Assembly (NCBI GenBank): GCA_029266615.1
Contig: JAQSWN010000032.1
Coordinates: forward strand, 1-64,000
DNA length: 64,000 bases
Direction of reading: 5' to 3'
From: Polyangiaceae bacterium
GTDB taxonomy: Bacteria > Myxococcota_A > Polyangia > Polyangiales > Polyangiaceae
Part shown: positions 3,406-41,571 of the stretch, piece after piece
How the letters are laid out: every line of letters starts with the position of its first letter
How positions within the stretch are numbered: the first letter of the stretch is position 1
Translations under genes and position numbers: made by a program
Notes under the pieces: generated by a model
The model's input: only the letters and a program-made list of their open reading frames with translations
Database searches by the model: none
What the model was told of the DNA's origin: nothing

Positions 3406-3421
3406 GTCTCTTATACGAGAC
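3406..3421. promoter_or_regulatory. Perfect GTCT-N8-AGAC palindrome with TATA core
   Basis: GTCTCTTATACGAGAC; the symmetry extends one base each side (CGTCTC...GAGACG, 3405-3422). The TATAC core resembles a -10 element. It lies in the divergent spacer between the small lipoprotein gene and the flavoprotein/ferredoxin operon. Confidence 0.65.
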
Positions 3422-3516
3422 GACTCGTCAAGTGCTCTGATCTACGACGGTTTGGTTGGGATTGCTTCTGTGGCAGCAGCCGCGCCCTCATCACCGTCCT
3501 GAGCTTGCGCCTCAGA

Positions 3517-3551: not shown

Positions 3552-5180
3552 ATGGCAGAGCTCGGCATCGATCGCGACGCGCAGAAGCCCCCGACCAGCC
3601 CGCCCGTGAGCGATGACTTGCTCAGTTTGGAGGCGGACGTTCTCGTCATCGGCGGAGGGCCGGGCGGCACTTGGTCCGCCTATGCCGCGGCCTCGCAGGG
3701 CGCGCGGGTGGTGTTGGTGGACAAGGGCTACTGCGGCACCAGCGGTGCGACCGCGCCGTCGGGAGTGGGCGTCTGGTACGTCGAGCCGGACGAAACATTG
3801 CGCGCCGAGGCGCGCGCCAGCCGAGAGGTCATGGGCGGCAACCTCGCCGAGCGCAGCTGGATGGACCGCGTGCTCGACCAAACGTACGAGAACGTCGGCA
3901 AGCTAGCAGACTGGGGCTACCCCTTCCCGGTGGACGAGGAAGGCAAGCCCGCGCGCCGCAGCCTGCAGGGCCCCGAGTACATGAAGCTGATGCGCAAGAA
4001 GGTGCGTCAGGCTGGCGTTCGCATCTTGGATCACAGCCCTGCCCTGGAGCTCCTGGTGGACGATCATGGAGTCGCGGGCGCTCGCGGCGTGTCACGGCAA
4101 ACCGGCCAGCGCTGGCAGGTGAAGGCGAGCGCGGTGGTCATCGCGACTGGGGGCTGCGCGTTCTTGAGCAAGGCGCTCGGCTGCAACGTGCTCACCGGGG
4201 ACGGCGGCCTGCTCGCGGCCGAGGTCGGAGCCGAAATGTCGGGCATGGAGTTCTCCAACGCGTACGGCCTCGCGCCCGCCTTCGCTTCGGTGACGAAAGC
4301 CGCTTTTTACCGCTGGGCAAGCTTCTACTACGCCGATGGGCGGCCCATCGAAGGCGCGGGCTCGGCGCGCGGCCGCTCCGTCATCGCGCGCACCCTGATG
4401 ACGCAGCCGGTGTATTGCCAGCTGGATCAAGCAACCGAGGAGATGCGCGCTCAGCTACGCGCCGCGCAGCCCAACTTCTTTTTGCCCTTCGATCGCGCTG
4501 GCATCGATCCTCTCACGCAGCGCTTCCCCGTCACGCTGCGCCTCGAGGGAACCGTGCGCGGCACCGGTGGCATCCGCATCGCGGACGAAGGCTGCGGTAC
4601 GTCCGTGCCGGGGCTATACGCCGCGGGTGACGCCGCCACGCGGGAGCTGATCTGCGGCGGATTCACTGGCGGCGGCAGCCATAACGCCGCATGGGCCATA
4701 TCGTCCGGCTTTTGGGCAGGTCAAAGCGCCGCTCGCCACGCGAAAGCGCTGGGTGGAAACGCCGCCAAGCGCATCCCGCGCGGCGCCGGTGTGGCAACCC
4801 TCGCCGCGAGCGCCGGCAAGCAGTTGGACGCGGACGCGCTGGTGCGCGACGTGCAAGCGGAAGTGTTCCCCTACGAACGCAACCTGTTCCGCACCGAGCA
4901 AGGTTTGGTGGACTCGCTCGGCCGCCTCGACGGGCTGTGGCAAGACGTCCAGGCGGCCCGCCCCGAGCAGCACGCACGCAGCGTGATCCGCGGACGGGAA
5001 GCAGCGAGCATGCTCGCCACCGCGCGGTGGATGTACGCGACGGCGCGACACCGCCAAGAGTCGCGCGGCATGCACAAGCACGTGGACTTCCCGGAGCTAG
5101 ATCCTTCTCAGCAGCGCCGCCTCGTCACGAGTGGCTTGGACAAGATTCGCGTTCGCGCCGAAGGCCGGGTGCCAGCGTGA
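3552..5180 (+). CDS. FAD-dependent oxidoreductase, fumarate reductase/AprA-like flavoprotein
   Basis: The 542-residue flavoprotein has an N-terminal dinucleotide-binding motif (VLVIGGGPGG, about residues 30-39). Typical FAD segments follow: TSGATAPSGVG, VVIATGG, and late GLYAAGDAA with FTGGGSHNAAWA. The architecture is that of the fumarate reductase/succinate dehydrogenase/AprA flavoprotein superfamily. It overlaps a two-cluster ferredoxin gene by four bases, so the two subunits are probably made in equal amounts and form an AprAB-like complex. Its place directly before a sulfonate ABC system suggests a redox step on an organosulfur compound or sulfite; the substrate cannot be read from sequence. 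Start fixed by GGAGG six bases upstream. Two palindromic operator candidates precede it. Confidence 0.85.
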   Translation: MAELGIDRDAQKPPTSPPVSDDLLSLEADVLVIGGGPGGTWSAYAAASQGARVVLVDKGYCGTSGATAPSGVGVWYVEPDETLRAEARASREVMGGNLAERSWMDRVLDQTYENVGKLADWGYPFPVDEEGKPARRSLQGPEYMKLMRKKVRQAGVRILDHSPALELLVDDHGVAGARGVSRQTGQRWQVKASAVVIATGGCAFLSKALGCNVLTGDGGLLAAEVGAEMSGMEFSNAYGLAPAFASVTKAAFYRWASFYYADGRPIEGAGSARGRSVIARTLMTQPVYCQLDQATEEMRAQLRAAQPNFFLPFDRAGIDPLTQRFPVTLRLEGTVRGTGGIRIADEGCGTSVPGLYAAGDAATRELICGGFTGGGSHNAAWAISSGFWAGQSAARHAKALGGNAAKRIPRGAGVATLAASAGKQLDADALVRDVQAEVFPYERNLFRTEQGLVDSLGRLDGLWQDVQAARPEQHARSVIRGREAASMLATARWMYATARHRQESRGMHKHVDFPELDPSQQRRLVTSGLDKIRVRAEGRVPA

Positions 5181-5589: not shown

Positions 5590-6651
5590 ATGATTCTCCT
5601 ATCACGGACAATGCACTGGACGCGCATCGCCGAGCGCCTGGGCTTGTTGCTGCTCGTCCTCACCTGCGCGATAGGCTGCAAAGGGGCTAAGCCGGACCAG
5701 GCGACGCCCAGCATAGAAGGCAACGGTCCGGAGCAGCTCGAGCTGCGCTATCAGGGCTTCACGGGTCAGGTGACGTACCCGGAGCTCGCCGAGGATCTCG
5801 GCCTCCTCGCTCCCATCAAGCTCAACTACGTCGGCAACACGATCAGCGGGCCGCAGGACATCCAAAGCGTCGTCACGGGAGACACGGATTACGGCGGGGC
5901 CTTCAACGGCGCCGTGATCAAGCTCATCGCCGCCAAGGCTCCTATCAAGGCCGTCGTCGGCTACTACGGCACGGACGAGAATACGTGGGCCGGCTATTAC
6001 GTCTTGGAGGACAGCCCCATCAAGGGCGCTCGCGATTTGATCGGTAAAAAGGTAGCCGTCAACACGCTCGGTGCCCACATGGAGTTCGTGTTGCGCGAGT
6101 ATTTGGCGCGGGGCGGATTGCGCAAAGAGGAAGTAGACCAGGTCACGCTCGTCGTCGTGCCGCCCGTCAGCGGCGAGCAAGCGCTGCGGCAAAAGCAGGT
6201 GGAAGTCGCGACGATGAGCAGCATCATCCGTGACAAGGCTGTTTCTCGAGGCGGCCTGCGCCTGCTCTTTTCGGACTACCAGCTCTTCGGCAAGTTCACC
6301 GCCGGTAGCTACGTCTTCTCCGAACGGTTCCTGCGCGAGAAGCCGCGAACGGTAAAGAAGTTCGTGGAAGGCACGGCGCAGGCCATCGAGTGGGCTCGGA
6401 GCCACACCCGCGAAGAAGTCATTGCGCGGTACACCGCCATCATCAACAAGCGCCGCCGCCAGGAAGACGCGAGCGCGGTCGCGTACTACCGCTCCACCGG
6501 CATCGCCTTCCCGGGCGGCGTCATTCAAGACAGCGAGCTCCGCGTGTGGCTGGACTGGCTGGTCAAGAGCGGGCAGCTGTCGGCCGGTAAGCTCCAGGTC
6601 CGCGATCTCTACACCAATCAGTACAACCCCTTCGCGAACGGCCCCACGTGA
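5590..6651 (+). CDS. ABC transporter substrate-binding lipoprotein (sulfonate/taurine type)
   Basis: This is a lipid-anchored binding protein: hydrophobic segment, then a lipobox LTCAIGC. Candidate starts are ATG 5590 and ATG 5611; the latter gives a compact MHWTRIAERLG signal and lies clear of the AT-rich operator-like site. The mature protein has the NMT1/SsuA pattern (LELRYQGFTGQVTYPELAEDLG, a GGAFNGAVIKL pocket, and DSPIKGARDLIGKKVAV). Its last bases overlap the ATPase start (GTGA), so binding protein, ATPase and permease form one operon. The substrate is probably an organic sulfur compound. Confidence 0.85.
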   Translation: MILLSRTMHWTRIAERLGLLLLVLTCAIGCKGAKPDQATPSIEGNGPEQLELRYQGFTGQVTYPELAEDLGLLAPIKLNYVGNTISGPQDIQSVVTGDTDYGGAFNGAVIKLIAAKAPIKAVVGYYGTDENTWAGYYVLEDSPIKGARDLIGKKVAVNTLGAHMEFVLREYLARGGLRKEEVDQVTLVVVPPVSGEQALRQKQVEVATMSSIIRDKAVSRGGLRLLFSDYQLFGKFTAGSYVFSERFLREKPRTVKKFVEGTAQAIEWARSHTREEVIARYTAIINKRRRQEDASAVAYYRSTGIAFPGGVIQDSELRVWLDWLVKSGQLSAGKLQVRDLYTNQYNPFANGPT

Positions 6652-8490: not shown

Positions 8491-8506
8491 GTCTCCTATA
8501 CTAGAC
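8491..8506. promoter_or_regulatory. Perfect GTCT-N8-AGAC palindrome with TATA core
   Basis: GTCTCCTATACTAGAC lies 38 bases before the DUF2325 start, in the roughly 200-base spacer after the permease. The core TATACT would make a good -10 hexamer, so the operator and promoter probably coincide. Confidence 0.65.
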
Positions 8507-10885: not shown

Positions 10886-11229
10886 ATGAGCTTGCGTCCT
10901 CTCACCCTGACCCTAGCCTTGAAGGACGAGGCGGGCGCGAAAAGTGCGGCGGAGCAAGCGTTGTCCGTCATCGAGAGTAGCACGCCCAAAGGTGGCAAGA
11001 CGGCCTCTCCGCGATCGAGCGCGCTCTCGCCCTCGCCTACGGCCCTCGCCGCATTGGGTTCCTCGGCCTCAAGGCGAAGTTGCTCAGGGGCGACGGCAAG
11101 CTCGAGCAAGCGCGCGCAGTGCTGCAGGCGCAGCTGAGTGAATATCGCGCGCTTCCCCCCGGTCAGCGCCAGCCCGATGCGGAGACCGTCGTGCAAAAGC
11201 GGTTGGACACTTGGGGCGCGCCTCCGTAG
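10886..11229 (+). pseudogene. Frameshifted remnant of a TPR-like protein C-terminus
   Basis: Two frames together look like one protein end. The first, from ATG 10886, gives MSLRPLTLTLALKDE followed by AEQALSVIESSTPKGGK. Near 10990-11010 the coding character passes to another frame, giving an AIERALALAYGPRRIG helix, then a LEQARAVLQAQLSEYRALPP helix, and ends QKRLDTWGAPP at 11229. Neither frame is complete. It resembles the helical-repeat C-terminus of a larger myxobacterial protein. It is probably a decayed fragment; one indel plus loss of the 5' part would explain it. Confidence 0.45.
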
Positions 11230-12243: not shown

Positions 12244-13596
12244 TCACTCTGCGCTGACTGCGCGCGCCGTTTCGGTGAAGCGGTTCTGCGGACGCTCCAG
12301 GCCGAGGTGGTCGCGCAGCGTGGTTCCGCTGTACTCGCTGCGGAACAAGCCGCGACGGCGCAGCTCCGGCACCAGCTGTTCTACGATGTCGTCCAATCCC
12401 GTCGGTAACACCGGCGGCATGAGGTTGAAGCCGTCGGCGGCCTCGTTGTCGAACCAGCTCTGGAGCTGGTCGGCGATTTGACTGGCGGTACCGACCAAGG
12501 TCCAGTGGCCGCGCGCGCCGGCGACCCAGAGGTATAGATCGCGGATCGTGAAGTTCTTCTTCTTCGCGATGTCGTACATCAAGGCTTGGCGGCTCTTCTG
12601 ATTGTTCGTCTCCGGAAGCGGCGGCAGCGGGCCGTCTACCGGGTACTTGGAGAGGTCGAAGTCCCCCGCCAAGCCGCCGAGCAAGCCGAGCCCCACCTCG
12701 GGCAGGATCAGGTCTTGAAGCTCGTCGTACTTGGCCTTGGCTTCGCTCTCCGTCTTGCCGAGCACGGGGAAGATGCCGAGCATAATCTTGAGCTGGTCGT
12801 CGCGACGGCCGTACTTGCCAAGGCGGCCCTTCACGTCGCGATAAAAGGCTTGAGCGTCTGCCAGCGTCTGCTGGGCGGTGAAAATGACCTCTGCGGTGCG
12901 GCCGGCGAACTCCTTGCCCGGTTCGGAAGAGCCCGCTTGGACGATGACGGGGTACCCTTGCGGCGGGCGCGGCACGTTGAGCGGCCCGCGTACCTTGAGG
13001 TGCTTGCCGTTGAAGTCCAGGCGGTGGGACTTAGTGGGGTCATAGAAAAACCCACTCGCCTTATCGCGCGAAAAGGCGTCATCCTCCCAGGAATCCCAGA
13101 GGCCGGTGACGACGTCGTAAAACTCGTTGGCGCGTTCGTAGCGGAGTGAGTGGTCCGGGTGCGCTTCGAAGCCAAAGTTGCCGGCGGCGTGGGGGCTGCC
13201 GGTAGTGACGATGTTCCAGGCAGCGCGGCCGGCGCTAATGTGGTCCAGCGAGGCGAACTTCCGCGCCAGGAGAAACGGATCTTCGTAAGTCGTGGAAGCG
13301 GTCGCGATGAAACCGATGCGCTCCGTCACCGCCGCCAACGCCGAGAAGAGGGTGACGGGCTCGAACGTGCCGCCGTAAGCGGTCTTGCCCTCGGCGCCGG
13401 TGAAGAAGTTCGCCGACAAGCCATCTGCCAAGAAGATCGCGTCGAGCTTCGCCTTCTCCGCGGTTTGCGCGAGCCGGACGTAGTGCTTGAGGTTCACGCC
13501 CGCGTCCGCTTGCGCGTGCGGGTGGCGCCAGGCCGCGACGTGGTGGCCGGCGGCGGGGATGAAGGCGCCGAGCTTGAGATCCCGTTTGTTGGACAT
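12244..13596 (-). CDS. FMN-dependent LLM-class monooxygenase, NtaA/SnaA/DszA family (copy 1)
   Basis: The 450-residue two-component flavin monooxygenase has a luciferase-like TIM barrel. Family landmarks are GAFIPAAGHHVAAWRHP at the N-terminus, ATASTTYEDPFLLARKFASL, SAGRAAWNIVTT, and GPLNVPRPPQGYPVIVQAG followed by SS. These define the DszA/NtaA/SnaA subgroup, which oxidises sulfones, sulfonates or aminopolycarboxylates with FMNH2 from a partner reductase. The ssuE-like reductase at 16.25 kb is the obvious partner. Start ATG 13596 was chosen because conserved sequence begins there. Two compact palindromes lie upstream. Confidence 0.9.
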   Translation of the reverse strand: MSNKRDLKLGAFIPAAGHHVAAWRHPHAQADAGVNLKHYVRLAQTAEKAKLDAIFLADGLSANFFTGAEGKTAYGGTFEPVTLFSALAAVTERIGFIATASTTYEDPFLLARKFASLDHISAGRAAWNIVTTGSPHAAGNFGFEAHPDHSLRYERANEFYDVVTGLWDSWEDDAFSRDKASGFFYDPTKSHRLDFNGKHLKVRGPLNVPRPPQGYPVIVQAGSSEPGKEFAGRTAEVIFTAQQTLADAQAFYRDVKGRLGKYGRRDDQLKIMLGIFPVLGKTESEAKAKYDELQDLILPEVGLGLLGGLAGDFDLSKYPVDGPLPPLPETNNQKSRQALMYDIAKKKNFTIRDLYLWVAGARGHWTLVGTASQIADQLQSWFDNEAADGFNLMPPVLPTGLDDIVEQLVPELRRRGLFRSEYSGTTLRDHLGLERPQNRFTETARAVSAE

Positions 13597-13662: not shown

Positions 13663-13734
13663 GGACGGTTTGCTGCGCGGGGAGCACCGCAAGCGAGCCG
13701 GGTCCGCGGGTGACGTGAAACCCCTCCAGCAGGC

Positions 13735-15585
13735 TCATGCTGCGTCTCCGACCTTGGATTGTGCCGCCCAAAGCTCGGCGTAACCGCCGCTCTTGGCGAG
13801 CAGCTCCTGATGAGTGCCGTCTTCGATCACGCAGCCCCGCGAGAAAACCAAAATCCGGTCCAAGTGCGCGATGGTGGAGAGCCGGTGCGCTATAACAACG
13901 ACCGTCTTGCCCTCCATGGCGTCGTCGAGCGCCGATTGAATCGCGAGCTCCGTGAGCGAGTCGAGGCTGGCGGTCGCTTCGTCCAAGACCAAGAGTGGCG
14001 CGTCCTTGAGCATCACTCGTGCGATGGCGATGCGTTGGCGTTGCCCCCCGGAGAGCTTCACGCCGCGCTCGCCGACCATCGCGTCGTACTGTTCCGGCAT
14101 GGCGGCGATGAACTCATGGGCGTGAGCGCGCCGCGCGGCTTGCTCGACCTCTTGGTCACTCGCGCCGGTGCGGCCATAGCGAATATTTTCGCGCAGCGTG
14201 CGGTGGAAGAGGGTGGGATCTTGAGGGATGAGTCCCACCTGCCGGTGCAGCGAATCCTGAGTCATCGAGCGCAAATCATGCCCGTCGATGCGGATCGTAC
14301 CGGCCTGCGGATCGTAGAGGCGCAGCAGCAAGCTCACGAACGTCGACTTGCCCGAGCCGGACAAGCCGACCAGGCCCACGCGCTGCCCGGCCGGGATCGT
14401 CAGGGACAGGCCGCTGAACACGTTCGCCCCCTCCGCGTAACGGAAGTCGACGTTGGAAAACTCGATGCTCCCGCGCCCAATCTCATGATCCAGCGCCCCA
14501 CTATGGTCGGCCAGCTCGTGCGGCTTGAAGATGGTGCTGACACCCTCGGAGACATTTCCGAGCGCTTCGAACAACTCGAGGAAGCGGCGGCTCAAGTTCC
14601 GAACCTCACCGATGACGAGCAGGCTCAAGCTCACCGCCATGACGAAGTCGCCGACCCGCAGCTGACCGCGCTCCCAGAGCCACACTGCCAGTACCACCGT
14701 GCCGCCCTTGAGGACGGCGGAGGCGGAGAACTGAAAGAGCCGCACCTGCTCCATGGCAAGGTTGGCGCGCAGCACGGTGGTGAGCTCGCGCGACTGCGCG
14801 TCCGCCAAGCGCTCCCGCTCGTGCTCGAGCCGTGCAAATAGCCGCACCGTCGCGTGATTGGTCACGGAATCGACGACCGCGCCGGCGGTCCGACTGCGCG
14901 CGCGAGACGCCGCTGAGGAGAGCGGTTGGGTGCGACGCGCCAAATAAAGGGACGCGGCGATGAACGCGATGGACCAAGTCGTGGTGAACGCGCCGAGCCA
15001 GGGACTCGCTCGCAGCAGAAGCACGTTGGCCACCGTGATCACGATGCTCATCGGCCAAAATTCGGTCAGCGTCGCGAACATGACCTGGTTGACGCCGTGC
15101 GAAGTCTCGCTGATGCGGTGGGCGAGCGCGCCCGCGAAGTTCTCCGTCAGAAAGCGGTGCGAATGGCGGTGTAGATACCGGAAGAGCGCGCGCGCTACGT
15201 ACTGACGCTGGCGCGGCGCTAGCCGCAGCTGCACGGCAGAGCCGATGCGGCCGAAAACGAGCTCCGCGCCACAGAGGACCGCGAACAGCACCACGGACCT
15301 CGTGACCGCAGCGAGCGCAACGCCCTCCGCCCCCGCGCGCGTGATGGTGCCGATGATGCGACCAAGCACCTGAGGGAGCAGGGCGCCGCACAAGGCGTGC
15401 AGCCCTTCGCTGAGCAAGATCGCGAGCACCCACAGCCGAAAACGGCCGCTCGCGACGCGGAGGATGAACCCGGCGCTGCCAATCGGCAGCTCCGTAGCGC
15501 TAGGCAACGGCAGCTCGTCCGGCAAGGACGGCGTGTCGGCGCGCAGCTCGAGTCCTGAGTTGACGACAGATTGCAAGACAACCAT
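13735..15585 (-). CDS. ABC exporter, fused permease and ATPase
   Basis: The 616-residue half-transporter has an N-terminal six-helix ABC exporter membrane domain (about residues 45-330) and a C-terminal ATPase. Walker A GLSGSGKST, signature LSGGQRQR, Walker B LLVLDEA and the HRLST H-loop are intact. It belongs to the MsbA/HlyB-like exporters that work as dimers. It lies between the HAD phosphatase and the flavin monooxygenase genes in a run of same-strand genes, so it may export a product or a toxic intermediate. A weak GTCC-type palindrome overlaps its start region (15584-15599). Confidence 0.88.
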   Translation of the reverse strand: MVVLQSVVNSGLELRADTPSLPDELPLPSATELPIGSAGFILRVASGRFRLWVLAILLSEGLHALCGALLPQVLGRIIGTITRAGAEGVALAAVTRSVVLFAVLCGAELVFGRIGSAVQLRLAPRQRQYVARALFRYLHRHSHRFLTENFAGALAHRISETSHGVNQVMFATLTEFWPMSIVITVANVLLLRASPWLGAFTTTWSIAFIAASLYLARRTQPLSSAASRARSRTAGAVVDSVTNHATVRLFARLEHERERLADAQSRELTTVLRANLAMEQVRLFQFSASAVLKGGTVVLAVWLWERGQLRVGDFVMAVSLSLLVIGEVRNLSRRFLELFEALGNVSEGVSTIFKPHELADHSGALDHEIGRGSIEFSNVDFRYAEGANVFSGLSLTIPAGQRVGLVGLSGSGKSTFVSLLLRLYDPQAGTIRIDGHDLRSMTQDSLHRQVGLIPQDPTLFHRTLRENIRYGRTGASDQEVEQAARRAHAHEFIAAMPEQYDAMVGERGVKLSGGQRQRIAIARVMLKDAPLLVLDEATASLDSLTELAIQSALDDAMEGKTVVVIAHRLSTIAHLDRILVFSRGCVIEDGTHQELLAKSGGYAELWAAQSKVGDAA

Positions 15586-15643: not shown

Positions 15644-16360
15644 TCACGCTTGCTGCGCGGGCAGCAACCGCGACAGCTCCGCGGCGAGCGCCGCTGCGTC
15701 ACCCTCGAACCGAAGCGCGCGCATACCGACCGCGCGCGCGGCGTCGCAGTTTTGGCTTCGGTCGTCGATGAACAGGCACTCGCCCGTTCCGACCCCCAGC
15801 TCTGCCGCCGCACGTTCGAATATCCGGGGATCGGGCTTCCGCAGGCCGAGCCGGCAAGACATGAAGGTCCAGCTCACGTAGCGAGACAGCGCGAGCCGTT
15901 CCTCGATCCAGCGGTACCAAACCGGGTAGTTCGAGAGGACGTGCATGGTGTGACCACGAGCCTTGAGCTTGGCCAAGAGTGGCTCCATGCCCTCCAACCA
16001 AGAATAAGCGCTGCGGACCTTCGTGCAGAACTCATCGTGATCGAACTTTCGCCCATCGGCAAAGAAGCGATCCAAAAACTGGGTTTCGCTGAGCTCCCCG
16101 CGCTCGAACTGCCCCCAAGCCTCCGGCTGCTTGAGCTGCATCATCTCGCTCAACGTCATGCCGAAGAAGCTCGGCATGACGTCACGAAACGGGTCGCGCA
16201 CGAGGGTATCCATCACGTCCCAGAGCAGGACGCGCGGCGGCGAGCGCTGCGGGTCAGCTATGCTGAACCTCGTGAGCGGCGCGATGAAGGCCGACCCGAA
16301 AACTCTTGATGGTCGCGTCCAGCTTGGCGGAGAGGTCAGCGTCGAGGTCCAGGCCACCAT
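15644..16360 (-). CDS. HAD-superfamily hydrolase, homologue of plant chloroplast FMN hydrolase
   Basis: The core reads LLWDVMDTLVRDPF, SWLEGMEPLL, VLSNYPVWYRWIEERL and CRLGLRKPDPRIF, ending FIDDRSQN. This pattern closely follows the plant chloroplast FMN/pyrimidine hydrolase family, not a generic HAD. It would dephosphorylate FMN or a similar phosphate ester. The conserved start is near 16225, yet no ATG, GTG or TTG lies between it and the stop of the upstream reductase gene. The ATG at 16360 lies inside that gene, so the true N-terminus is uncertain. Its place beside an FMN reductase makes flavin turnover a plausible role. Confidence 0.75.
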   Translation of the reverse strand: MVAWTSTLTSPPSWTRPSRVFGSAFIAPLTRFSIADPQRSPPRVLLWDVMDTLVRDPFRDVMPSFFGMTLSEMMQLKQPEAWGQFERGELSETQFLDRFFADGRKFDHDEFCTKVRSAYSWLEGMEPLLAKLKARGHTMHVLSNYPVWYRWIEERLALSRYVSWTFMSCRLGLRKPDPRIFERAAAELGVGTGECLFIDDRSQNCDAARAVGMRALRFEGDAAALAAELSRLLPAQQA

Positions 16361-23095: not shown

Positions 23096-23111
23096 GTCTA
23101 CTATACGAGAC
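23096..23111. promoter_or_regulatory. Perfect GTCT-N8-AGAC palindrome over the dioxygenase promoter
   Basis: GTCTACTATACGAGAC is centred on the -10 of the leftward dioxygenase gene. On the minus strand TAGACA (23128-23123) and TATAGT (23105-23100) are 17 bases apart, a near-consensus sigma70 promoter. A protein bound here would block RNA polymerase. It is the clearest promoter/operator overlap in the window. Confidence 0.7.
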
Positions 23112-23137: not shown

Positions 23138-23319
23138 CTAGTTTTTGCTCGTGAATTGGTCGAGCGCGCCGAGATCTGGCAGCGCTGGTGCCCGGATTGC
23201 GGCGGTAGCAGCAACGACGAGGGTCACGCCGCCGCCGAGCACGACCGCGGGGGCGGTTCCGAGCAGGCGGGCCGCGACGCGAAGACGCGCGGCTGTCGCA
23301 GCGTGCTCAAAGCTCAACG
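23138..23319 (-). pseudogene. Possible C-terminal stub of an MFS transporter
   Basis: The minus-strand frame ending at 23138 reads AARLLGTAPAVVLGGGVTLV followed by VAATAAIRAPALPDLG, like the last transmembrane helix and tail of DHA3-type MFS exporters. No start codon or upstream remainder exists, because the aldo/keto reductase gene begins its stop at 23320. It appears to be a leftover of a replaced gene. Low confidence, since the fragment is only about 60 residues. Confidence 0.3.
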
Positions 23320-24755: not shown

Positions 24756-25526
24756 TCAGCTCTTGGCCGACGAGCCTTCGAGAATTTGCGCGCGGACCTG
24801 CTCGGTCAGGTTTTTCAGAACTGGGTCGGCGCGGTCCCTGGGGTGCGCGACGTCGATCGGGAAGATCTTCCTGATGCGCCCGGGACGCGGCTGCATCACG
24901 ACGACCCGGTCCCCGAGGTAGACGGCTTCGTCCACGTCGTGGGTAACCAAGATCATCGTGATCTTCTCCCGCTGCCAGATATTCTGCAGCTCGCTCTGCA
25001 GCCGAGAGCGGGTCAGCGCGTCGAGCGCGCCGAACGGCTCGTCCAGCAGCAAAATGCTGGGCTGGTTCACCAGCCCCCGCGCGATGGCGGCGCGCTGAGC
25101 CATTCCTCCCGAGAGCTGGTGTGGGTAGGCGCTCTCGAAGCCCCTCAGCCCCACTAGGTCGATGTGCTCGGCGACGGCTTGCTTCTTCTTGTCTTCGGAC
25201 CAATCCGAGTTCTGCAGTCCGAGCCCGACGTTCTGCTCCAGAGTCAGCCAGGGAAACAACCGGTGCTCCTGGAACACGATGCCTCGGTCCAGGCTGGTGC
25301 CGGTGACGACGTTTCCACCAACCTTGATCTGTCCCTCGTACTCTCGGTCCAGACCGACGAGCAGGCGAAGTAACGTCGACTTACCGCAACCGCTGGAGCC
25401 GACGATCGCGAGGAACTCGCCCGGCGCAATCGTGAGCGTCAGATCCTCCAAAACCGGGAGGACCTCGTTCTTCACCTTGAATTGCTTACGGACCCTTTGA
25501 ATGTCGATGACTGCGGACGTGCTCAT
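24756..25526 (-). CDS. ABC transporter ATP-binding protein, SsuB/TauB family (second system)
   Basis: The 256-residue ATPase has Walker A GSSGCGKST (43-51), Q-loop FQEHRLFPW, signature LSGGMAQR (138-145) and Walker B LLLDEP (159-164), then ILVTHDVDEAV. This is the nitrate/sulfonate/taurine subgroup. It is read with the two permease genes upstream and the nitroreductase fragment two bases downstream. The energy-coupling subunit is complete and should serve both permeases. Confidence 0.9.
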   Translation of the reverse strand: MSTSAVIDIQRVRKQFKVKNEVLPVLEDLTLTIAPGEFLAIVGSSGCGKSTLLRLLVGLDREYEGQIKVGGNVVTGTSLDRGIVFQEHRLFPWLTLEQNVGLGLQNSDWSEDKKKQAVAEHIDLVGLRGFESAYPHQLSGGMAQRAAIARGLVNQPSILLLDEPFGALDALTRSRLQSELQNIWQREKITMILVTHDVDEAVYLGDRVVVMQPRPGRIRKIFPIDVAHPRDRADPVLKNLTEQVRAQILEGSSAKS

Positions 25527-25538
25527 GGTGACTTTCTC

Positions 25539-26324
25539 TCAAGCGGCGCGGACGCGCCAACGCGTCAAGCGAGTTTCTAAGCGGGTGGAGAGCGCGTTCA
25601 AGGCGTAGCCAACCGCGCCCGCGATGATCACGCCGAGCAGCACTTTATCCATCTTGAACTGCTCACGGCCGTCAATCATCAAGTTGCCGATACCGAGTCC
25701 GGGCGCGAGCAAGTACTCAGCGCCGAGCGTGCCGAGCCACGAATAGACTAGCGCCAAGTGCAAGCCCGAGAAGATCGAAGGCAAGGCGCCCGGGAGCACG
25801 ACCTTCCGGAAAATCTGCGCGTGTGAGAAGCGAAACACACGCGCTACCTCCACGTGCTCACGACCCACGCTCCGTATGCCCTCGAACGTATTGAGCACCA
25901 CGGGGTAGAACGCGGATAGCGCGATGAACACTATCTTCGCGGGTTCCCCCGTGAACCACACCGAGATGAGCGGGATCCAAGCGAAGATGGCGACCTGCTT
26001 GGCGGCGTGGAAGGTGGGCCCGACGAGCTTGTCGGCCAAGCGAGACAAGCCCATGGCGCTGCCGACGACGAGACCGCCGACGGAACCGATGCCGAAGCCG
26101 ATCAAGTCGCGCTGCAGGCTCGCGGCCAACGCGGGAAATAGCTCACCTTCCCTCAACTGCTGAGCAAGGACCTTGAGCACCGAAGCCGGCGTCGCGAGGA
26201 GCAAGGTGTTGACGAGCTTGAAACGCGTCAGCAGATCCCACAGCAAGACGAGCGCGAGGGGCACGATCCAGCCTCGCAACCAGCTCGGAACGATGGACTT
26301 GTGGGAGATGGCAGCGGCGCTCAT
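25539..26324 (-). CDS. ABC transporter permease, SsuC/TauC family (second system, b)
   Basis: The 261-residue inner-membrane permease has about six helices and the coupling loop segment VARVFRFSHAQIFRKVVLPG. Its ATG overlaps the stop of the other permease (ATGA at 26321-26324), so the two are translationally coupled and probably form a heterodimeric channel rather than the usual homodimer. Family and context point to sulfonate or nitrile-like organosulfur import. Confidence 0.88.
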   Translation of the reverse strand: MSAAAISHKSIVPSWLRGWIVPLALVLLWDLLTRFKLVNTLLLATPASVLKVLAQQLREGELFPALAASLQRDLIGFGIGSVGGLVVGSAMGLSRLADKLVGPTFHAAKQVAIFAWIPLISVWFTGEPAKIVFIALSAFYPVVLNTFEGIRSVGREHVEVARVFRFSHAQIFRKVVLPGALPSIFSGLHLALVYSWLGTLGAEYLLAPGLGIGNLMIDGREQFKMDKVLLGVIIAGAVGYALNALSTRLETRLTRWRVRAA

Positions 26325-27196
26325 GATGCTTGCCCTTCAGAACCGAAGGAGCCGGTGGGTCGCCATCGCAGCAGGCGTGACTCCAGCTTCTCGATGCCCT
26401 TGTCCAGCACTAAGCCAACGACGCCGACTACGATGATGGCGGAGAGCACCAAGTCGAGCTGGAACAGCTGGCGACCCCAAACAATCAAGAAGCCGAGGCC
26501 CTCCGAGGAAGCGAGGAGCTCCACCGTGACCAGTGAGAGCCACGCTTGCGTCAAACCGTAGCGAATGCCCACGAAGACCGCGGGCACGGACGCGGGGAAC
26601 ACGACCTTGCGCAGCAACTGGCGCTTGGAAAACTGGAAGGAACGCGCCACGTCCAAGTAGGCCACCGGCACGTTGCGAATGCCCTTCAGAGTATTGATCG
26701 CGATCGGCACGAGCGCGGCGTGGGCAATGATCACCACCTTGAGCGATTCCCCGATTCCGAGGACCATCATCGCGAGCGGCAGCCAGCCGAGCACCGGCAC
26801 CTGGCTTATCGCGTTGAAAAACGTGTAAAGGTACTGCTCGACGCGCCGCGACAGGCCCATCGCGACGCCGAGTACGACGCCGATCAAACCGCCGAACACG
26901 ACCCCCCCCGCGACGCGACCGAGACTGATCGCGAAGTTGACGAACAGCTCCCCGGACTTCACTTGGTCGAGCAACGTTTGGGCCACCGCCGCCGGTGCCG
27001 GCAGGATCTGCGGCGCGACCCATTCTTTATGAGAGGCCACGGCCCAGGTGAAAAGCAGGGCCGTGGGAACGATCCAGCCGATGAGAGAGGGCCGTGCCTT
27101 AAGGGGCTTCTTGGCGATGACCGCAGGGCTCTGCGGCGAAGTCGGCGTTTCACGAGCGCCGGATGCGATGTCGAACGGAGCTTCCAGTTGAGACAT
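26321..27196 (-). CDS. ABC transporter permease, SsuC/TauC family (second system, a)
   Basis: The 291-residue permease has a 35-residue N-terminal extension before the first helix (LIGWIVPTALLFTWAVAS). The coupling loop DVARSFQFSKRQLLRKVVFP and GLGFLIVWGRQLFQLDLV are SsuC-like. It differs clearly from its neighbour. It follows the porin gene by about 45 bases. No binding-protein gene accompanies this importer. Confidence 0.88.
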   Translation of the reverse strand: MSQLEAPFDIASGARETPTSPQSPAVIAKKPLKARPSLIGWIVPTALLFTWAVASHKEWVAPQILPAPAAVAQTLLDQVKSGELFVNFAISLGRVAGGVVFGGLIGVVLGVAMGLSRRVEQYLYTFFNAISQVPVLGWLPLAMMVLGIGESLKVVIIAHAALVPIAINTLKGIRNVPVAYLDVARSFQFSKRQLLRKVVFPASVPAVFVGIRYGLTQAWLSLVTVELLASSEGLGFLIVWGRQLFQLDLVLSAIIVVGVVGLVLDKGIEKLESRLLRWRPTGSFGSEGQAS

Positions 27197-29116: not shown

Positions 29117-30626
29117 TCAGGCCGCCTTGTCGCGCTTCAGCTTTTGCTCGACCTGAGTGCCCTTGAAGAAGTCCGGATTCTTCCCCGCAAAGAAGGAGTG
29201 AGGGTGCGTGAAGACGAGGTCTTTGAAGTTCTGCTCCGTGAGCGCGCCCTTCTCCACCAAGCGCCACGTATCGGACAGGACCTCTGTGAGATCCGGCACG
29301 TCCCAGTGGCCGCTGTCGGACGCCCAGAACGCATTCACTTGCACTCCGAGCGGGTTCACCTTGGTGTTGAAGGCATAGGCGACGGTCGGATCGTCCGCCT
29401 CCGAACCGAAGTAGAAGTTCGGCACGAAGCGGTCGCGAATGTCTTCGATGCGCTGGATGCCGGCCTTGGCGAAGTCGTCGAGCGCGTCTGGCTCTTGAGG
29501 CTGGCGTCGAGAGTTGTTGGAAACGCCGAGCGCGCCGCCGAGCACGGACTTCACGTCGCCGAGGCGGCTCGTGACCTCGGGACCGCCGTACTCCTGATAC
29601 AGGCGATAGAGCAGCTCTGCATCGATGGCATCCGGATCGTAGTTACGTACGGCGTTGCCGTTGCGCTTCTCCCAGTGCCCCACGAGGTCCGCGTAGAGCT
29701 GGGCGCCCCAACCCGCGCCCCCTTCCAAGAACCCGACGCGCAGGTCCGGGAAAACGGCGCGTGACGCCGCCCAAGAACAGCGACTTCGCGAGCGCCTCCG
29801 AAGCGGAAGCGAAGTGACCGATGTGGTTGTACATGTAGCTGGAATACGAGCTGCGGCTCGTCCAACCCATGCCCGCCGAGTGCGTCGTCAGCACCGTCTG
29901 CAGCTCGACCGCCTTGGCCCAGAACGAGTCGTAGTCGTGCTCGCTGTCCAGGCCGAAGGTGTCCAGCCAATTCGCGTGCCGGGCGACATCAGGATGGTGC
30001 CGCGCCGGGTACTTCTCGGCGATGGAGCGAATCGGGCGACGCAGGTTGCCGGGGATGAGCGCCACCTTCAAGCCCAGCCCTTGGATCGCGAACTCCAGCT
30101 CCTCGATGCCCTCCTCGGGGGTGTGGAGCGGGATGGCCGCCACCGGCGTCAGGCGATCGGCGTAGGGGGCGTACACGTCGCGGTGGTATTCATTGACGGC
30201 GCGGATCAGGGCGCGTCGCAGGTCGGTGTCGCCAACGTGAGTCGCGAACGTAGATACGTTCGGGAACAGCACGGCGTAGTCGGTTCCGCTCTCCGCGATA
30301 CGCTCGTGCAGCAGCCGAGGCAGCGACACGGTGGCCAAGTCGTAAGTGTTCTTGGTCGGCAGCGCCCACCACGGCGGACGAATCGCGCGCTGGGCGGCGC
30401 GCTGCTCCGGGGTGAGCTCGTACCACTCGTTGTTCAGGTAGCCGAAACCTCGGTTGATGGCGGCGCGGAACTTGTCCACGGACGCCGCACCGCCATGCTT
30501 GGCGATGTAGTCCTCGAGCGCGGGGGCGAACTCGATCGTGTGGAGGTCAGTGTCGATGACGGGGTAATCGAGTTGCGCGCGAACGGCGGCAGACTTCGAG
30601 GCCTTACGAAGCAAGGAGCTTGTCAT
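29117..30626 (-). CDS. Amidohydrolase family protein with apparent 1-nt frameshift
   Basis: A metal-dependent amidohydrolase (PF04909-like TIM barrel) is spread over two frames. The first, from ATG 30626, includes VIDTDLHTIEF and runs through GHFASASEALAKSLFLGGVT to RRFP. The second continues DLRVGFLEGGAGWGAQLYAD to the stop at 29117. Removing one T from the run AAAA at 29751-29754 (TTTT on the coding strand) gives exactly 503 codons. A homopolymer indel is a common assembly error, so the gene may be intact. Related proteins decarboxylate or hydrolyse small aromatic acids. The region 28941-29116 holds nothing else I can support. Confidence 0.75.
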
Positions 30627-31483: not shown

Positions 31484-31499
31484 GTCTTTTATAGTAGAC
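31484..31499. promoter_or_regulatory. Perfect GTCT-N8-AGAC palindrome with TATA core
   Basis: GTCTTTTATAGTAGAC lies 20 bases before the methyltransferase ATG and 78 bases after the end of the regulator gene. On the coding strand the core reads CTACTATAAA, a plausible -10. Confidence 0.65.
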
Positions 31500-31576
31500 A
31501 GCTCAACCGCCACGACGGCCGGGGCTTCTACGCGGCTCGGGTTGCTGACCTCGCAGCAACCTTGTGACGACGCCGT

Positions 31577-33526
31577 TCACTCGAGCGGCCAGGCCGCATC
31601 AGCCACGGACACCGCGCGAGGGATGAGCTTCAAGCGATAGAACGCGTCTGCGACGCGCTGCTGGGAAGCGATGATCTCGGGGCGGCGCAGGCTCTCCCCC
31701 AGGCTGCGCTTCAGCGCCAACCCAATCGCCTCTTGGGCGATGCCGACCTGCTCCGCCAGTGACTCGGCCGCCTCTTCCACGTGCTCGGTTGCCCAGCGTT
31801 GTACGGCGCGGAGCTCGCGCCGGAAGAGCGCCAGGATTTCCGGATGCTCGGTCGCGAACTCCGAGCTTGCCACGTAGTAGGCCGGGTTAGTGGTCAGTCC
31901 GCGCCCGTCACGCAGAACCCGCACTGGTAACCGCTGCTGGATCTCGGCCAAGATCGGGTCCGCGATCACCCACGCGTCCACCTCCCGGTGCTGAAAGCGC
32001 GCGCGAGCCGCGTCCGAGAACACGAACTTTGCTTGCACGTCACCGTAGGACAAGCCCGCCTCCTCGAGCGCGCGAATCAGCAGGTAGTGCGCGTTGGAGC
32101 CCCGCAGTAATGCCACTTTCTTGCCTCGCAGCCCCGCGACACTACGGATGGGCGAGTCTTGAAAGACGACGATCGCTTCGCCCTCCGGAGCGGGGGCCTC
32201 CGCTGCGACGTAAACGATCGGCACCGCTGAAGCTTGGGCGAAGATGGGCGGTCCTTCGCCCACGACGCCGATAGAGAGCTGCCCATTCTTGAACGCGTCC
32301 ACGAGCCGAATCCCGCTGGGATAGTGCTTCCACTCGACGTTGTAGCCGAGCTCGTTTAGTTGAGACTCGATGCTCCCGCGGGCGCGCAGCAGCTTGAGCA
32401 GCCCGAACGGTTGGTAGCCGAAGCTCACGACCGGACGCGCCCGCCCCGTCAGCCGCGGGCGGCTCTCGGGTGCGTCTCCGGCGGATGGCGCGCGCAGAAA
32501 TCCCGCGACCTCGCCGTATTGAATCAAGCGAGCGCGAACGACGTTGCGGCTGATGCCGAGAAGACGCGCCGTTTTAAGCTGATTTTGCCCTGAGAACCGG
32601 TACGCGCTGCGCATCACCGCTTCATCGATCAGCTCGTGCAGGTGGGGCGGGCTCAGCTCGAACAGCTTGGCGAGAGAGCGCTCGAGCTCCTGCAAGGGCG
32701 AGCCAGCTTCGACGCTCGGGGTTCCTTCGTCGCCGAGCCGCAGATCTTCTGGCGTGATGAAGCGGCCGCGGCAACGCAAGATTGCATGGTGAATTGCCCG
32801 CTCGAGCTCGCGGATGTTGCCGGGGAAATGATGGTCGCGCAGCAGCCGCTCGGATTCCGGGCTGAGCGAGCGCGAGCCGATGCCGATCCGCTGCTGGTAG
32901 AGAGCCAGGAAGTGCCGCGCGAGCGGCAAGATGTCGCCGCGTCGCTTTCGCAGAGGCAAAACCTCGAGCTTAGTCCCCGAGATTAGCCGCAGGAGATCGG
33001 GCCGGAAGTGGCCCGCCGTCACCGCTTCTTGAAGCTGAACGCTGCTGGCGATGACGAGCCGTACGTTGAAGGGTTGGTACCGCCGGGCCCCCAGCTTCCG
33101 AAACTGATGATCCTCGAGGACGCGAACCAGTTTGGCTTGAGTTGCCTGAGGCGTATCGCCAATCGCGTCCAAATAGAGAGTGCCGCCTTCGGCGCTCTCG
33201 AGAACACCGGTTCGGGTACCGCTGCTGTTCGGCAACGCGTCCTTCTCGTGGCCGAAGAGCTCCGCCTCCAGCTCTGCCCCCGGAAATGACGCGCAATTGG
33301 TGGATAAGAAAGGCCCGAGACGCCGCAGCGAGAGCTCGTGGATGTAGCGCGCTACCAGCTCGCGGCCCGTTCCTGCTTCTCCCGAGAGCAGAACCGGCCG
33401 GTCACTGCCGGCGACGCCGCGGATCTGCTCGAGGAGCTCGCGGGAGCGAGGATCTTCGAAAACCAGTGCCTTGGCGCGTTCAGAGAGCCCGGAGCCGCGC
33501 GCTTCGGGAAGGGTCAGTAAGGTCAT
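31577..33526 (-). CDS. Fusion regulator: degenerate NtrC-type AAA+ domain, Fis HTH and C-terminal SsuA-like sulfonate-binding domain
   Basis: Three parts are visible (residues counted from the upstream ATG 33574). AAA+ 35-225: Walker A GEAGTGRE has Arg for Lys (71), Walker B LYLDAI has Ala for Glu (137), and the GAFTGA loop is replaced by DALPNSSGTRTG, so neither ATP hydrolysis nor sigma54 contact is expected. A Fis-type helix-turn-helix stands at about 330-353 (NQLKTARLLGISRNVVRARL). From 380 to the end is a binding domain with SsuA landmarks: VSFGYQPFGLLKLLRARG, GPPIFAQAS, VALLRGSNAHYLLIRALEEAG. No signal peptide exists, so it works in the cytoplasm. The ATG at 33526 is preferred because 33574 lies inside an operator-like TATAAT element. 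Probable sulfonate sensor of the island. Confidence 0.85.
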   Translation of the reverse strand: MTLLTLPEARGSGLSERAKALVFEDPRSRELLEQIRGVAGSDRPVLLSGEAGTGRELVARYIHELSLRRLGPFLSTNCASFPGAELEAELFGHEKDALPNSSGTRTGVLESAEGGTLYLDAIGDTPQATQAKLVRVLEDHQFRKLGARRYQPFNVRLVIASSVQLQEAVTAGHFRPDLLRLISGTKLEVLPLRKRRGDILPLARHFLALYQQRIGIGSRSLSPESERLLRDHHFPGNIRELERAIHHAILRCRGRFITPEDLRLGDEGTPSVEAGSPLQELERSLAKLFELSPPHLHELIDEAVMRSAYRFSGQNQLKTARLLGISRNVVRARLIQYGEVAGFLRAPSAGDAPESRPRLTGRARPVVSFGYQPFGLLKLLRARGSIESQLNELGYNVEWKHYPSGIRLVDAFKNGQLSIGVVGEGPPIFAQASAVPIVYVAAEAPAPEGEAIVVFQDSPIRSVAGLRGKKVALLRGSNAHYLLIRALEEAGLSYGDVQAKFVFSDAARARFQHREVDAWVIADPILAEIQQRLPVRVLRDGRGLTTNPAYYVASSEFATEHPEILALFRRELRAVQRWATEHVEEAAESLAEQVGIAQEAIGLALKRSLGESLRRPEIIASQQRVADAFYRLKLIPRAVSVADAAWPLE

Positions 33527-33568
33527 GACTGCTGCGAGAGCAGCACCCTGCCACGAGAACGGACGTGC

Positions 33569-33584
33569 GTCCATTATAGAAGAG
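33569..33584. promoter_or_regulatory. Variant palindrome in the regulator/MFS divergent promoter
   Basis: GTCCATTATAGAAGAG keeps the spacing and the TATA core; each arm has one mismatch. It closely resembles the site before the rhodanese gene (GTCCATTATACTGGAG). It lies between the leftward fusion regulator and the rightward MFS gene, so it could mediate autoregulation. Confidence 0.5.
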
Positions 33585-34997: not shown

Positions 34998-35450
34998 ATG
35001 CCCCCGGCACGCGCCTTCCCTGTGCAAGAGGTCTCACCGCTCAGCCAGGTCGACTATCGCGCCCTCGCTGAGTTTCGTTTTCAGATCCGGAGCTTCCTCA
35101 GCTTCAGTGAGCGAGCCGCGCGCTCGAACGGGGTCGAGCCACAGCAGCATCAACTGCTACTCGCGTTGAAGGGACTGCCGGAAGGTAAACGCCCCACCAT
35201 CGGTACGATCGCGGAGCGGCTGTGCGTAGAGCACCACACCGCCGTCACCCTGACGGATCGCTTGGAACGCGCCGGCTTGGTGCAGCGCGAGCGCAGCGCC
35301 CACGATCGTCGCGAGGTGCTGCTCAGTATCACGCCGCGGGGAGAAGAAATCCTCACCCAGCTGTCTCAGCTCCACCGGGAGCAGCTGAAGACGGTCGCCC
35401 CCGGACTGCATCGCGCGTTGGCGACGGTGCTTTCGCTCAACGACAGCTGA
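34998..35450 (+). CDS. MarR-family transcriptional regulator
   Basis: The 150-residue winged-helix regulator reads LRSFLSFSERAARSNGVEPQ in the dimer helix, TIGTIAERLCVEHHTAVTLTDRLERAGLV in the recognition region and RSAHDRREVLLSITPRG in the wing. MarR proteins usually repress nearby genes until a small aromatic or thiol ligand binds. It lies between an MFS exporter and a transporter stub, inside the sulfur island. It is one of four regulators here that could read the shared palindrome. Confidence 0.88.
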   Translation: MPPARAFPVQEVSPLSQVDYRALAEFRFQIRSFLSFSERAARSNGVEPQQHQLLLALKGLPEGKRPTIGTIAERLCVEHHTAVTLTDRLERAGLVQRERSAHDRREVLLSITPRGEEILTQLSQLHREQLKTVAPGLHRALATVLSLNDS

Positions 35451-35775: not shown

Positions 35776-36390
35776 TCAGACGACTCGCTCAGCGTACGTC
35801 ATGACGAGGTACATCCATGCTTCTTCGTCGCCCGGGTTTTCATACGAGTGCGGGAGGTCGGCGTCGAAGATGATGGAGTCGCCCTCCTTGAGCTCGTGCT
35901 TGCTCTTGCCGACACGAATGTCCACCGACCCGCGCGCAACGACGAGGTTCTCGGTCGTACCGGGCGCGTGCGCTTCGGCGTGCTCGGCGCCTTTGGCCGC
36001 CAGACGCAGCTCGTAAAACTCGATGTTGCGAGGGGCATTGAACGGCGACAGTGCGCGCGAGGTGAACGCGCCGTCAGCCGAGGTGAGGAGCTTAGCGCCT
36101 TTGCTGCGCAGCACCGTCGCCGTGCGCGCGGTAGAAGCCGTCACGAGGGTGGAGAACGGCACTTCGAGCGCGCGTGAGATCTTCCACAGGAGGTTGATGG
36201 TGGGCGTACTTTGCCCGAGCTCGATCTGGCCGAGCATGGCTCGGCTCACGCCGGAGGCGCGCGCAAGCCGCTCGAGAGACAGGCCGCGTTTCACGCGTAG
36301 CCGCCTCAAATTGGCGCCCACGATGGGCGTGAGATCGGCGTCGGACTCAGCGGGTGACGAGGGCAACGGGAGCGTGGTGGGGCTGGACAA
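35776..36390 (-). CDS. XRE-family regulator with C-terminal cupin (SutR-like)
   Basis: The 204-residue protein has an XRE helix-turn-helix (GANLRRLRVKRGLSLERLAR...GVSRAMLGQIELGQSTPTI, about 25-66) and a C-terminal cupin (EFYELRLAAKGAEHAEAHAPGT, FDADLPHSYENPG). This architecture is shared with E. coli SutR (YdcN), a regulator of sulfur utilisation, and with others. The gene diverges from a 1-Cys peroxiredoxin across a 29-bp palindrome whose arms are GGTCTAT/ATAGACC. It is a serious alternative candidate for the reader of the island palindrome. Confidence 0.88.
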   Translation of the reverse strand: MSSPTTLPLPSSPAESDADLTPIVGANLRRLRVKRGLSLERLARASGVSRAMLGQIELGQSTPTINLLWKISRALEVPFSTLVTASTARTATVLRSKGAKLLTSADGAFTSRALSPFNAPRNIEFYELRLAAKGAEHAEAHAPGTTENLVVARGSVDIRVGKSKHELKEGDSIIFDADLPHSYENPGDEEAWMYLVMTYAERVV

Positions 36391-41391: not shown

Positions 41392-41571
41392 CTAACTGCC
41401 ACGGATCGAATTGCCAATGCCGGCGGCGCCACCGCCCAGCGATTCGTCCAGCGAAAACGCCGCTTTATCCGTTACAGCAGTGGTCAAGTTACCCGATGGG
41501 GTGATGAGCCCGTGCTCGGGCAGACCGTAATTCACTGCTGATCGCGCAGCAGGCGTTCTGAATCTGACCGT
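41392..41571 (-). CDS. Possible small protein preceding the encapsulin gene
   Basis: A 59-codon frame begins at ATG 41571 (MTVRFRTPAARSAVNYGL), has AGGAG about ten bases upstream and ends SLGGGAAGIGNSIRGS. Its middle (EHGLITPSGNLTTAVTDKAAF) looks protein-like but has no family I recognise. It lies between the operator-like site at 41606 and the shell gene, 54 bases before the latter. It could be a leader-encoded peptide, an extra encapsulin component or chance. Confidence 0.4.
   Translation of the reverse strand, partial: TVRFRTPAARSAVNYGLPEHGLITPSGNLTTAVTDKAAFSLDESLGGGAAGIGNSIRGS

Follow-up and report, generated by a model that had tools for sequence, protein, structure and literature searches.

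The 64,000-nucleotide (nt) stretch analyzed here (the window; positions 1 to 64,000 of contig JAQSWN010000032.1 from a Polyangiaceae bacterium) encodes, at positions 31577 to 33526 on the minus strand, a 649-residue regulator in which a dead AAA+ domain, a Fis-type helix-turn-helix (HTH), and an SsuA-type solute-binding protein (SBP) domain are joined in one open frame. The notable point is that this conserved dead member appears beside two live members of the same family with which it apparently has an operator in common. The reading that we prefer, and to which we give an even chance, is that the protein regulates sigma70-type promoters under the control of a ligand and independently of ATP, represses its own gene, and derives from SfnR-like sigma54 activators.

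On sequence grounds, the AAA+ motor of the regulator is dead, since five catalytic or sigma54-contact features are gone (all coordinates on the minus strand). The Walker A motif reads GEAGTGRE, with Lys changed to Arg (33359 to 33382); the Walker B motif reads LYLDAI, with Glu changed to Ala (33161 to 33178); and the L1 loop has DALPNS, or DAVPTS in the orthologue, in place of GAFTGA (33224 to 33241). The Walker A lysine, the Walker B glutamate, and the GAFTGA loop are the features by which bacterial enhancer-binding proteins (bEBPs) are judged, and in the alignment the regulator lacks all three, as an earlier interpretation of the same letters (the sequence-only reading) had recognized. Two losses go beyond that reading: sensor I is IASS where AATN is expected, and the second Arg of the arginine finger, FRxDLxYR, is displaced (FRPDLLRLISG; 32975 to 33007). 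The sequence-only reading had proposed aligning the Walker and GAFTGA columns across the family, and an alignment of 46 rows (24 fused with an SBP domain and 22 without) confined the losses to the regulator and its orthologue. The other 44 rows keep all three motifs (Walker A, L1, and Walker B); the loop reads GAYTGA in three of them and GAFSGA in two.

Domain searches confirmed the claim of that reading that AAA+, Fis-type HTH, and SsuA-like modules are fused in a single gene. The AAA+ domain (PF00158; E value, 1.5e-46) covers residues 22 to 186 (32969 to 33463, minus strand) and its lid residues 193 to 263. The HTH, with a 24-residue core at residues 315 to 338 (32513 to 32584, minus strand), was located by Pfam and by comparison with the intact paralogues; the Pfam match itself (HTH_8, residues 315 to 337; E value, 0.011) is weak and falls short of Pfam's cutoff. 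The SsuA-type domain (residues 366 to 646; 31589 to 32431, minus strand) continues in the same frame after the HTH. TIGR01728 (SsuA family) matches residues 379 to 645 with 193.3 bits, above the curated cutoff of 163.5, and the best solved relative is Escherichia coli SsuA (2x26; E value, 3.4e-46). An AlphaFold model built from 14 alignment rows supplied only part of the structure prediction that the sequence-only reading had suggested: the AAA+ part was modeled with fair to high confidence (block means of the predicted local distance difference test, pLDDT, of 70 to 94 across about residues 21 to 260), whereas residues 340 to 555 were mostly below 50 (whole-protein mean, 58.6) and the SBP domain was left without a confident model. 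The residue numbers follow the 649-residue frame, whose start was taken from alignment with the paralogues and the sister species. An alternative ATG farther upstream, at 33574, would give 665 residues; in the sister species this codon is ATA, and it overlaps a TATAAT box, so that the evidence favors 33526 as the start. The sequence-only reading had used the coordinates of the 649-residue frame, which stand, together with residue ranges (35 to 225, 330 to 353, and 380 to 665) that belong to the 665-residue frame.

The dead motor is conserved. An orthologue in a second assembly, SECP01000001.1 (Myxococcales metagenome-assembled genome [MAG] PMG_095), is 96% identical across residues 1 to 649 and has identical losses. 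Between the window's own genome (G000; 8.88 Mb) and the sister species (G377; match on contig G377:C96), the synonymous distance (dS) of the regulator is about 0.9, and the ratio of nonsynonymous to synonymous change (dN/dS), as estimated by NG86, is 0.027 overall and 0.015 in the AAA+ part. For the two intact paralogues, the same method gave 0.062 and 0.078 overall and 0.053 and 0.040 in the AAA+ parts. By this comparison, the dead motor is under strong purifying selection and is better conserved than the working ones, and the protein therefore has some function.

The paralogues, designated A (C321:3778-5709) and B (C321:29544-31496) in the own genome, are full-length fused proteins with intact motors and 48 to 49% identity to the regulator. 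Each shares with it 20 of the 24 positions of the HTH core, and the orthologues of all three are located on one contig in G377. In both species, the SBP domain of paralogue A (L003) is ~26 residues short near the C terminus relative to that of the regulator, a gap by which its sensor may be altered.

The idea of a unique fusion is ruled out by the intact versions in the own genome (two), in Enterobacterales, and in Azospirillum and Methylocystis. The sequence-only reading had regarded a sensor placed after the HTH as an unusual domain order and had proposed an architecture search; the fusion was upheld, and it was also met in other bacteria, in a wider family that has the same order and working motors. 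A tblastn search of plasmids gave 196 records at an E value of ≤1e-50, in 72 of which a single place accounted for at least 80% of the query, and Azospirillum, Methylocystis, Pantoea, Klebsiella, and Chimaeribacter were among the matches listed. Fourteen of 398 genomes of Pseudomonadota (the phylum of Alcanivorax) matched at an E value of 1e-125, 2 with fused proteins and 12 with proteins without the SBP domain. In the family of one fused-protein genome (G564), 10 of 99 genomes had a fused protein at an E value of ≤1e-170, and in the tree the fused proteins from those genomes group with the ones from Klebsiella, Pantoea, and Chimaeribacter. None of the 18 fused Pseudomonadota proteins (from 7 named plasmids and 11 genomes) has lost Walker A, GAFTGA, or Walker B. 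Within the own phylum, a single-protein search at an E value of ≤1e-80 matched 2 of 377 genomes (G000 and G337, of the same genus). The G337 protein (L088) is SfnR-like, has no SBP domain, and adjoins a gene that by eye resembles cysH. A profile search of the same 377 genomes at an E value of ≤1e-75 was too loose, matching 376 of them through the AAA+ part, and with up to three candidates scored per genome no full-length fused protein beyond G000 was among the matches listed.

Genes for ssuD or sfnG lie within all seven named fused loci, some of which also have msuE or an SfnB-type gene. Of three loci of homologues without the SBP domain, both annotated ones contain sfnG/msuE or ssu genes. The name SfnR-like, which we use for the family, reflects these contexts and the description of published SfnR as a sigma54-dependent activator of such sulfur genes (PMC8234197); judged by sequence, the fused proteins resemble SfnR-type sigma54 activators whose sensor is C-terminal. 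Their record labels vary (sigma-54-dependent Fis family, sigma 54-interacting, or aliphatic sulfonate SBP), and those of Azospirillum (L160) and Chimaeribacter (L193) are labeled "aliphatic sulfonate ABC transporter substrate-binding protein," a name that conceals their regulator domains.

The 46 family rows separate from four outgroups with support of 100/98, and the regulator falls in the sequence clade, and has the domain order, of the SfnR-like fused subfamily. In the SBP tree, the domains of the regulator's genus form one clade (95/98). The stem of the dead pair is 1.87 in the AAA+/HTH tree, versus 0.70 for B and 0.42 for A, and 0.88 in the SBP tree, versus 1.14 and 1.06 for the intact paralogues; the motor thus seems to have undergone a burst of change and then to have been frozen, while the sensor seems to have had no such burst. 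On the AAA+ tree, the fused label has to change three times, and the long branches make deep placements unsure. The tree neither shows nor excludes a single origin of the fusion.

Conserved dyads between the own genome and G377 precede the ABC (ATP-binding cassette) operon, the apr-like gene, and the ssuD-like gene near A and B as well as the regulator gene. The pattern derived from these four island promoters, TGYTGC-N4-GCARCA, is likely the operator of the family, as predicted from its placement elsewhere. In 16 of the 18 fused Pseudomonadota loci, a copy with at most one mismatch is followed 40 to 200 bp downstream by a sigma54-like site (none of five block shuffles gave a single case), with a spacing of 78 to 81 and/or 110 to 112 bp in 13 of the 16. 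The same arrangement was found at 4 of 22 SfnR-only loci (shuffles, 0 to 1), 18 of which came with just 1.5 kb of flank. Exact copies number 12 in G000 (6 in C320 and C321, two of these six inside genes) and 13 in G377, including 8 in the 180-kb island stretch. C320 has 8 intergenic copies with at most one mismatch, C321 has 6 (shuffled mean, 0.0 for both), and G377 has 11 (shuffled mean, 0.2); 10 of the 11 island copies that were aligned with G377 are kept. The palindromes that the sequence-only reading had placed in the island are thus borne out, as operator copies before sulfur genes and before the regulator gene. By pattern search, the regulator resembles the SfnR-like fused subfamily also in having the operator near its predicted target genes; no copy with at most one mismatch was found before paralogue A by this search.

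The two sides of the island differ in their predicted promoters. With a score of 24 or more taken as a strong sigma54-like site and shuffled regions as the control, 5 of 22 upstream regions on the A/B side of the own genome have one (maximum, 28; shuffled mean, 0.28). Four of the five are 16 to 22 nt from the start codon, and three (those of the ABC, apr-like, and binding-protein genes) recur in G377, where 3 of 27 A/B-side regions reach 24 (shuffled mean, 0.5; maximum, 3). On the window side, where the target genes are predicted ones, none of 30 upstream regions has such a site (shuffled mean, 0.45). The sigma54 DNA-binding family PF04552 has one match in the own genome. The regulator gene has a TATAAT −10-like box about 46 nt upstream of its ATG (33573 to 33578, minus strand), identified by comparison with the sister species and by box search. 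Its operator, TGCTGC-N4-GCAGCA, lies between this box and the ATG, 4 bp upstream of the latter (33530 to 33545), and its arms are kept in the sister species while the spacer is not; this position has the geometry of autorepression. TATA-type −10 boxes also stand behind the operators of the methyltransferase gene (TATAAA), the TauD-like gene (TATAGT), and ribB (TATAAG), where the operator centers lie 59, 102, and 70 bp, respectively, upstream of the center of a TATA palindrome. At the other operator-bearing promoters, no −10 box with at least five matches was found between operator and start.

These data suggest the following mechanism. Using its Fis HTH, and without hydrolyzing ATP, the regulator would bind TGYTGC-N4-GCARCA in dimeric or oligomeric form. 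The C-terminal domain would close on a small organosulfur ligand, sulfonate-like or other, and DNA binding would thereby be altered. From upstream operators, the regulator would activate or repress sigma70-type promoters, and by occupying the operator that separates its −10 box from the start codon it would repress its own gene. Its mode of action would be like that of TyrR, Rhodobacter capsulatus NtrC, and VpsR, which lack GAFTGA and act with sigma70, the cytoplasmic SBP replacing the N-terminal sensors of these proteins. The sequence-only reading, which had likewise proposed a cytoplasmic sulfonate sensor working through sigma70 promoters, is supported in part. Tentatively, and with less than even confidence, we further propose that a switch from sigma54 to sigma70 has been caught here with its sisters still living. 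An SBP captured behind the HTH would have founded a family with C-terminal sensors, and in one genus a copy would have lost the ATPase and the sigma54 loop, kept the sensor and the DNA site, and taken over sigma70 promoters with the same operator, leaving a sulfur regulon with two sigma factors and three sensors with different pockets.

Several points weigh against this interpretation. Binding of the regulator to the operator rests on homologous HTHs and on site conservation, the island operator counts are partly circular in that the pattern came from four island promoters, and the 18 fused loci, several of them close relatives, should not be counted as 18 independent cases. Over the whole genomes, the reversed control pattern is the more frequent one (35 copies in G000 and 24 in G377), so that the genome-wide count alone proves nothing and the placement of the copies carries the argument. 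Paralogue B is preceded by two copies, of which the one at C321:29334 is not kept in the sister species. The absence of strong sigma54-like sites from the 30 window-side regions is weak evidence given a shuffled mean of 0.45, and on the window side of G377 3 of 59 regions reach 24, one of them well placed (shuffled mean, 0.83; maximum, 4). Only some of the operator-bearing promoters have a −10 box; these boxes are short matches, and no good −35 element was identified for most of them. Finally, two substitutions in the pocket (Ser141 to Asn and Trp185 to Ala in SsuA numbering) mean that the ligand may not be an alkanesulfonate.

The best-surviving alternative is that the protein is a brake on A and B, occupying common operators or entering mixed rings and thus poisoning ATPase activity and sigma54 activation until it is released by ligand. 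We think this unlikely, though by no means negligible. It would account for the shared operator class and the near-identical HTH cores, for the location of the regulator and its intact paralogues on a single sister-species contig, and for an AAA+ part that is very strongly selected and modeled as a fold, which DNA binding alone would not obviously need. However, the window-side operators have no strong sigma54 sites on which a brake could act, and the arginine finger and sensor I are gone from the regulator. Strict conservation of the AAA+ part (dN/dS, 0.015) favors a protein-protein role of some kind for the dead ring, which keeps this alternative alive.

The sensor domain bears on a second alternative. 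In Xanthomonas citri SsuA, the sulfonate is reported to be held by Gln36, Gly68, Gly86, and Ser141, and Trp185 lines the pocket (PMC3839906). The regulator keeps three of the four contacts (Q372, G405, and G423, equivalent to Gln36, Gly68, and Gly86), which supports the homology on which the sequence-only reading had based its SsuA-like sensor module, and its ligand is likely sulfonate-like. The equivalent of Ser141 is Asn478, and Asn occupies this position in all 24 fused proteins; the equivalent of Trp185 is Ala522, which among the 24 is confined to the regulator and its orthologue. In paralogue B, His replaces the sulfonate-contact Gln, and the three sensors (regulator, A, and B) probably differ in ligand. 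A repressor or sensor that uses a repurposed SsuA fold for a non-sulfonate ligand, such as another organosulfur compound or a carboxylate, would agree with the two substitutions and with the varying pockets of the paralogues. We nevertheless consider it improbable, given the three retained contacts and the nearby genes for a TauD-like dioxygenase, a luciferase-like monooxygenase, and a flavin mononucleotide (FMN) reductase.

Two other explanations fare worse. It is very improbable that the palindrome at 33530 to 33545 is an RNA hairpin ahead of the start codon instead of a DNA operator; the conserved stem arms, the changed loop, and the ATG 4 bp away would suit a hairpin, but this sequence also precedes other genes and, in distant bacteria, accompanies sigma54-like sites. 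A degenerating pseudogene or an assembly artefact, which the loss of multiple catalytic motifs and an estimated contamination of 7 to 8% in both source genomes might suggest and the latter of which the sequence-only reading had named as the result that would undo it, is hardly credible and was rejected on both counts, given an intact frame with the same losses in two assemblies at 96% identity and a dN/dS of 0.027 at a dS of about 0.9.

Further operator copies lie in the window, all found by pattern search and, except where noted, by alignment with the sister species. Those with one mismatch precede the methyltransferase-to-transporter gene run (31543 to 31558), the flavin adenine dinucleotide (FAD)-binding oxidoreductase gene at 3552 to 5180 (3463 to 3478), and ribB, for 3,4-dihydroxy-2-butanone 4-phosphate (DHBP) synthase (41536 to 41551), or lie between the enolase-like and NMT1-type binding-protein genes (1822 to 1837). 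Another, before the luciferase-like monooxygenase gene at 12244 to 13596 (13671 to 13686), was found by pattern search and has a counterpart before the orthologue. An exact copy precedes the ABC exporter-like gene at 13735 to 15585 and lies within the 3' end of the preceding gene (15651 to 15666). The copy before the TauD-like dioxygenase gene (23198 to 23213; one mismatch) is a weak case, since it sits in DNA resembling conserved coding-region remains and its conservation is thus weak evidence. One more intergenic match, with one mismatch, was seen at 11120.

A second palindrome, GTCTNNTATANNAGAC, occurs at 3406 to 3421, 8491 to 8506, 23096 to 23111, and 31484 to 31499, and its TATA core is a possible −10 box. 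These are its only exact copies in the whole 8.88-Mb genome (reversed control, 0), and all four copies in the sister species are on the island contig. It is probably, judging by this distribution, the operator of another sulfur regulator, for which a MarR-like gene (34998 to 35450) and an XRE-cupin-like gene (35776 to 36390), both named by eye, are candidates.

The neighborhood fits an organosulfur island. Pfam matches include methyltransferase, amidohydrolase-like, porin, ABC permease and ATPase, aldo/keto reductase, and TauD-like dioxygenase genes (the permease match concerns one of two permease-like genes scanned), as well as two luciferase-like monooxygenases, FMN reductase, peroxiredoxin, rhodanese, and ribB. 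The two permease-like genes and the ABC ATPase gene at 24756 to 27196 have no adjoining binding-protein gene in the gene calls; binding-protein genes lie at 1975 to 3006 and 5611 to 6651. At 29117 to 30626, the amidohydrolase-like frame continues, by eye, in an overlapping frame (29117 to 29728) as if frameshifted. The gene for an enolase-superfamily-like protein (Enolase_C; 193 to 1707) has its operator-bearing intergenic region in common with a binding-protein gene.

An SBP sensor C-terminal to the Fis HTH of an SfnR-like AAA+ protein is an architecture that is inconsistently labeled in databases, and it comes here with a predicted operator and regulon. A full-text literature search, which left subscription papers largely outside, turned up no published SBP-fused sigma54 activator among the matches listed. 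With a dead copy beside two live ones, the transition from sigma54 activator to sigma70 regulator becomes directly testable, and the SBP domain may be usable as a sulfonate biosensor part.

Among known systems, SfnR and SfnR2 of Pseudomonas, which serve dimethyl sulfone and sulfonate genes, are alike in AAA+ and HTH; the comparison was made with plasmid homologues without the SBP domain, which align with the regulator at ~45 to 49%. SfnR itself is not known to have a C-terminal SBP, and the SfnR-like homologues differ from the regulator in the same respect and in their intact motors. The fused regulators of Pantoea, Klebsiella, Chimaeribacter, Azospirillum, and Methylocystis have the same domain order and a similar length, and the fused Pseudomonadota regulators have the same operator type (16 of 18 loci), but their motors are intact. 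SsuA, the periplasmic alkanesulfonate-binding protein of X. citri and E. coli, is homologous over the whole domain and has three of its four sulfonate contacts in the regulator, where the domain is instead fused behind an HTH and carries the Trp185-to-Ala and Ser141-to-Asn changes. The sensors of TyrR, NtrC, and VpsR are N-terminal, whereas that of the regulator is C-terminal. TyrR of E. coli, NtrC of Rhodobacter capsulatus and Caulobacter, and VpsR are described as GAFTGA-less bEBPs acting at sigma70 promoters (PMC10274813 and PMC6375630) and thus, like the regulator, have the bEBP fold without the sigma54 loop. According to one of these two sources, Caulobacter NtrC still requires ATP binding and hydrolysis; in the regulator, Walker A and Walker B are both changed.

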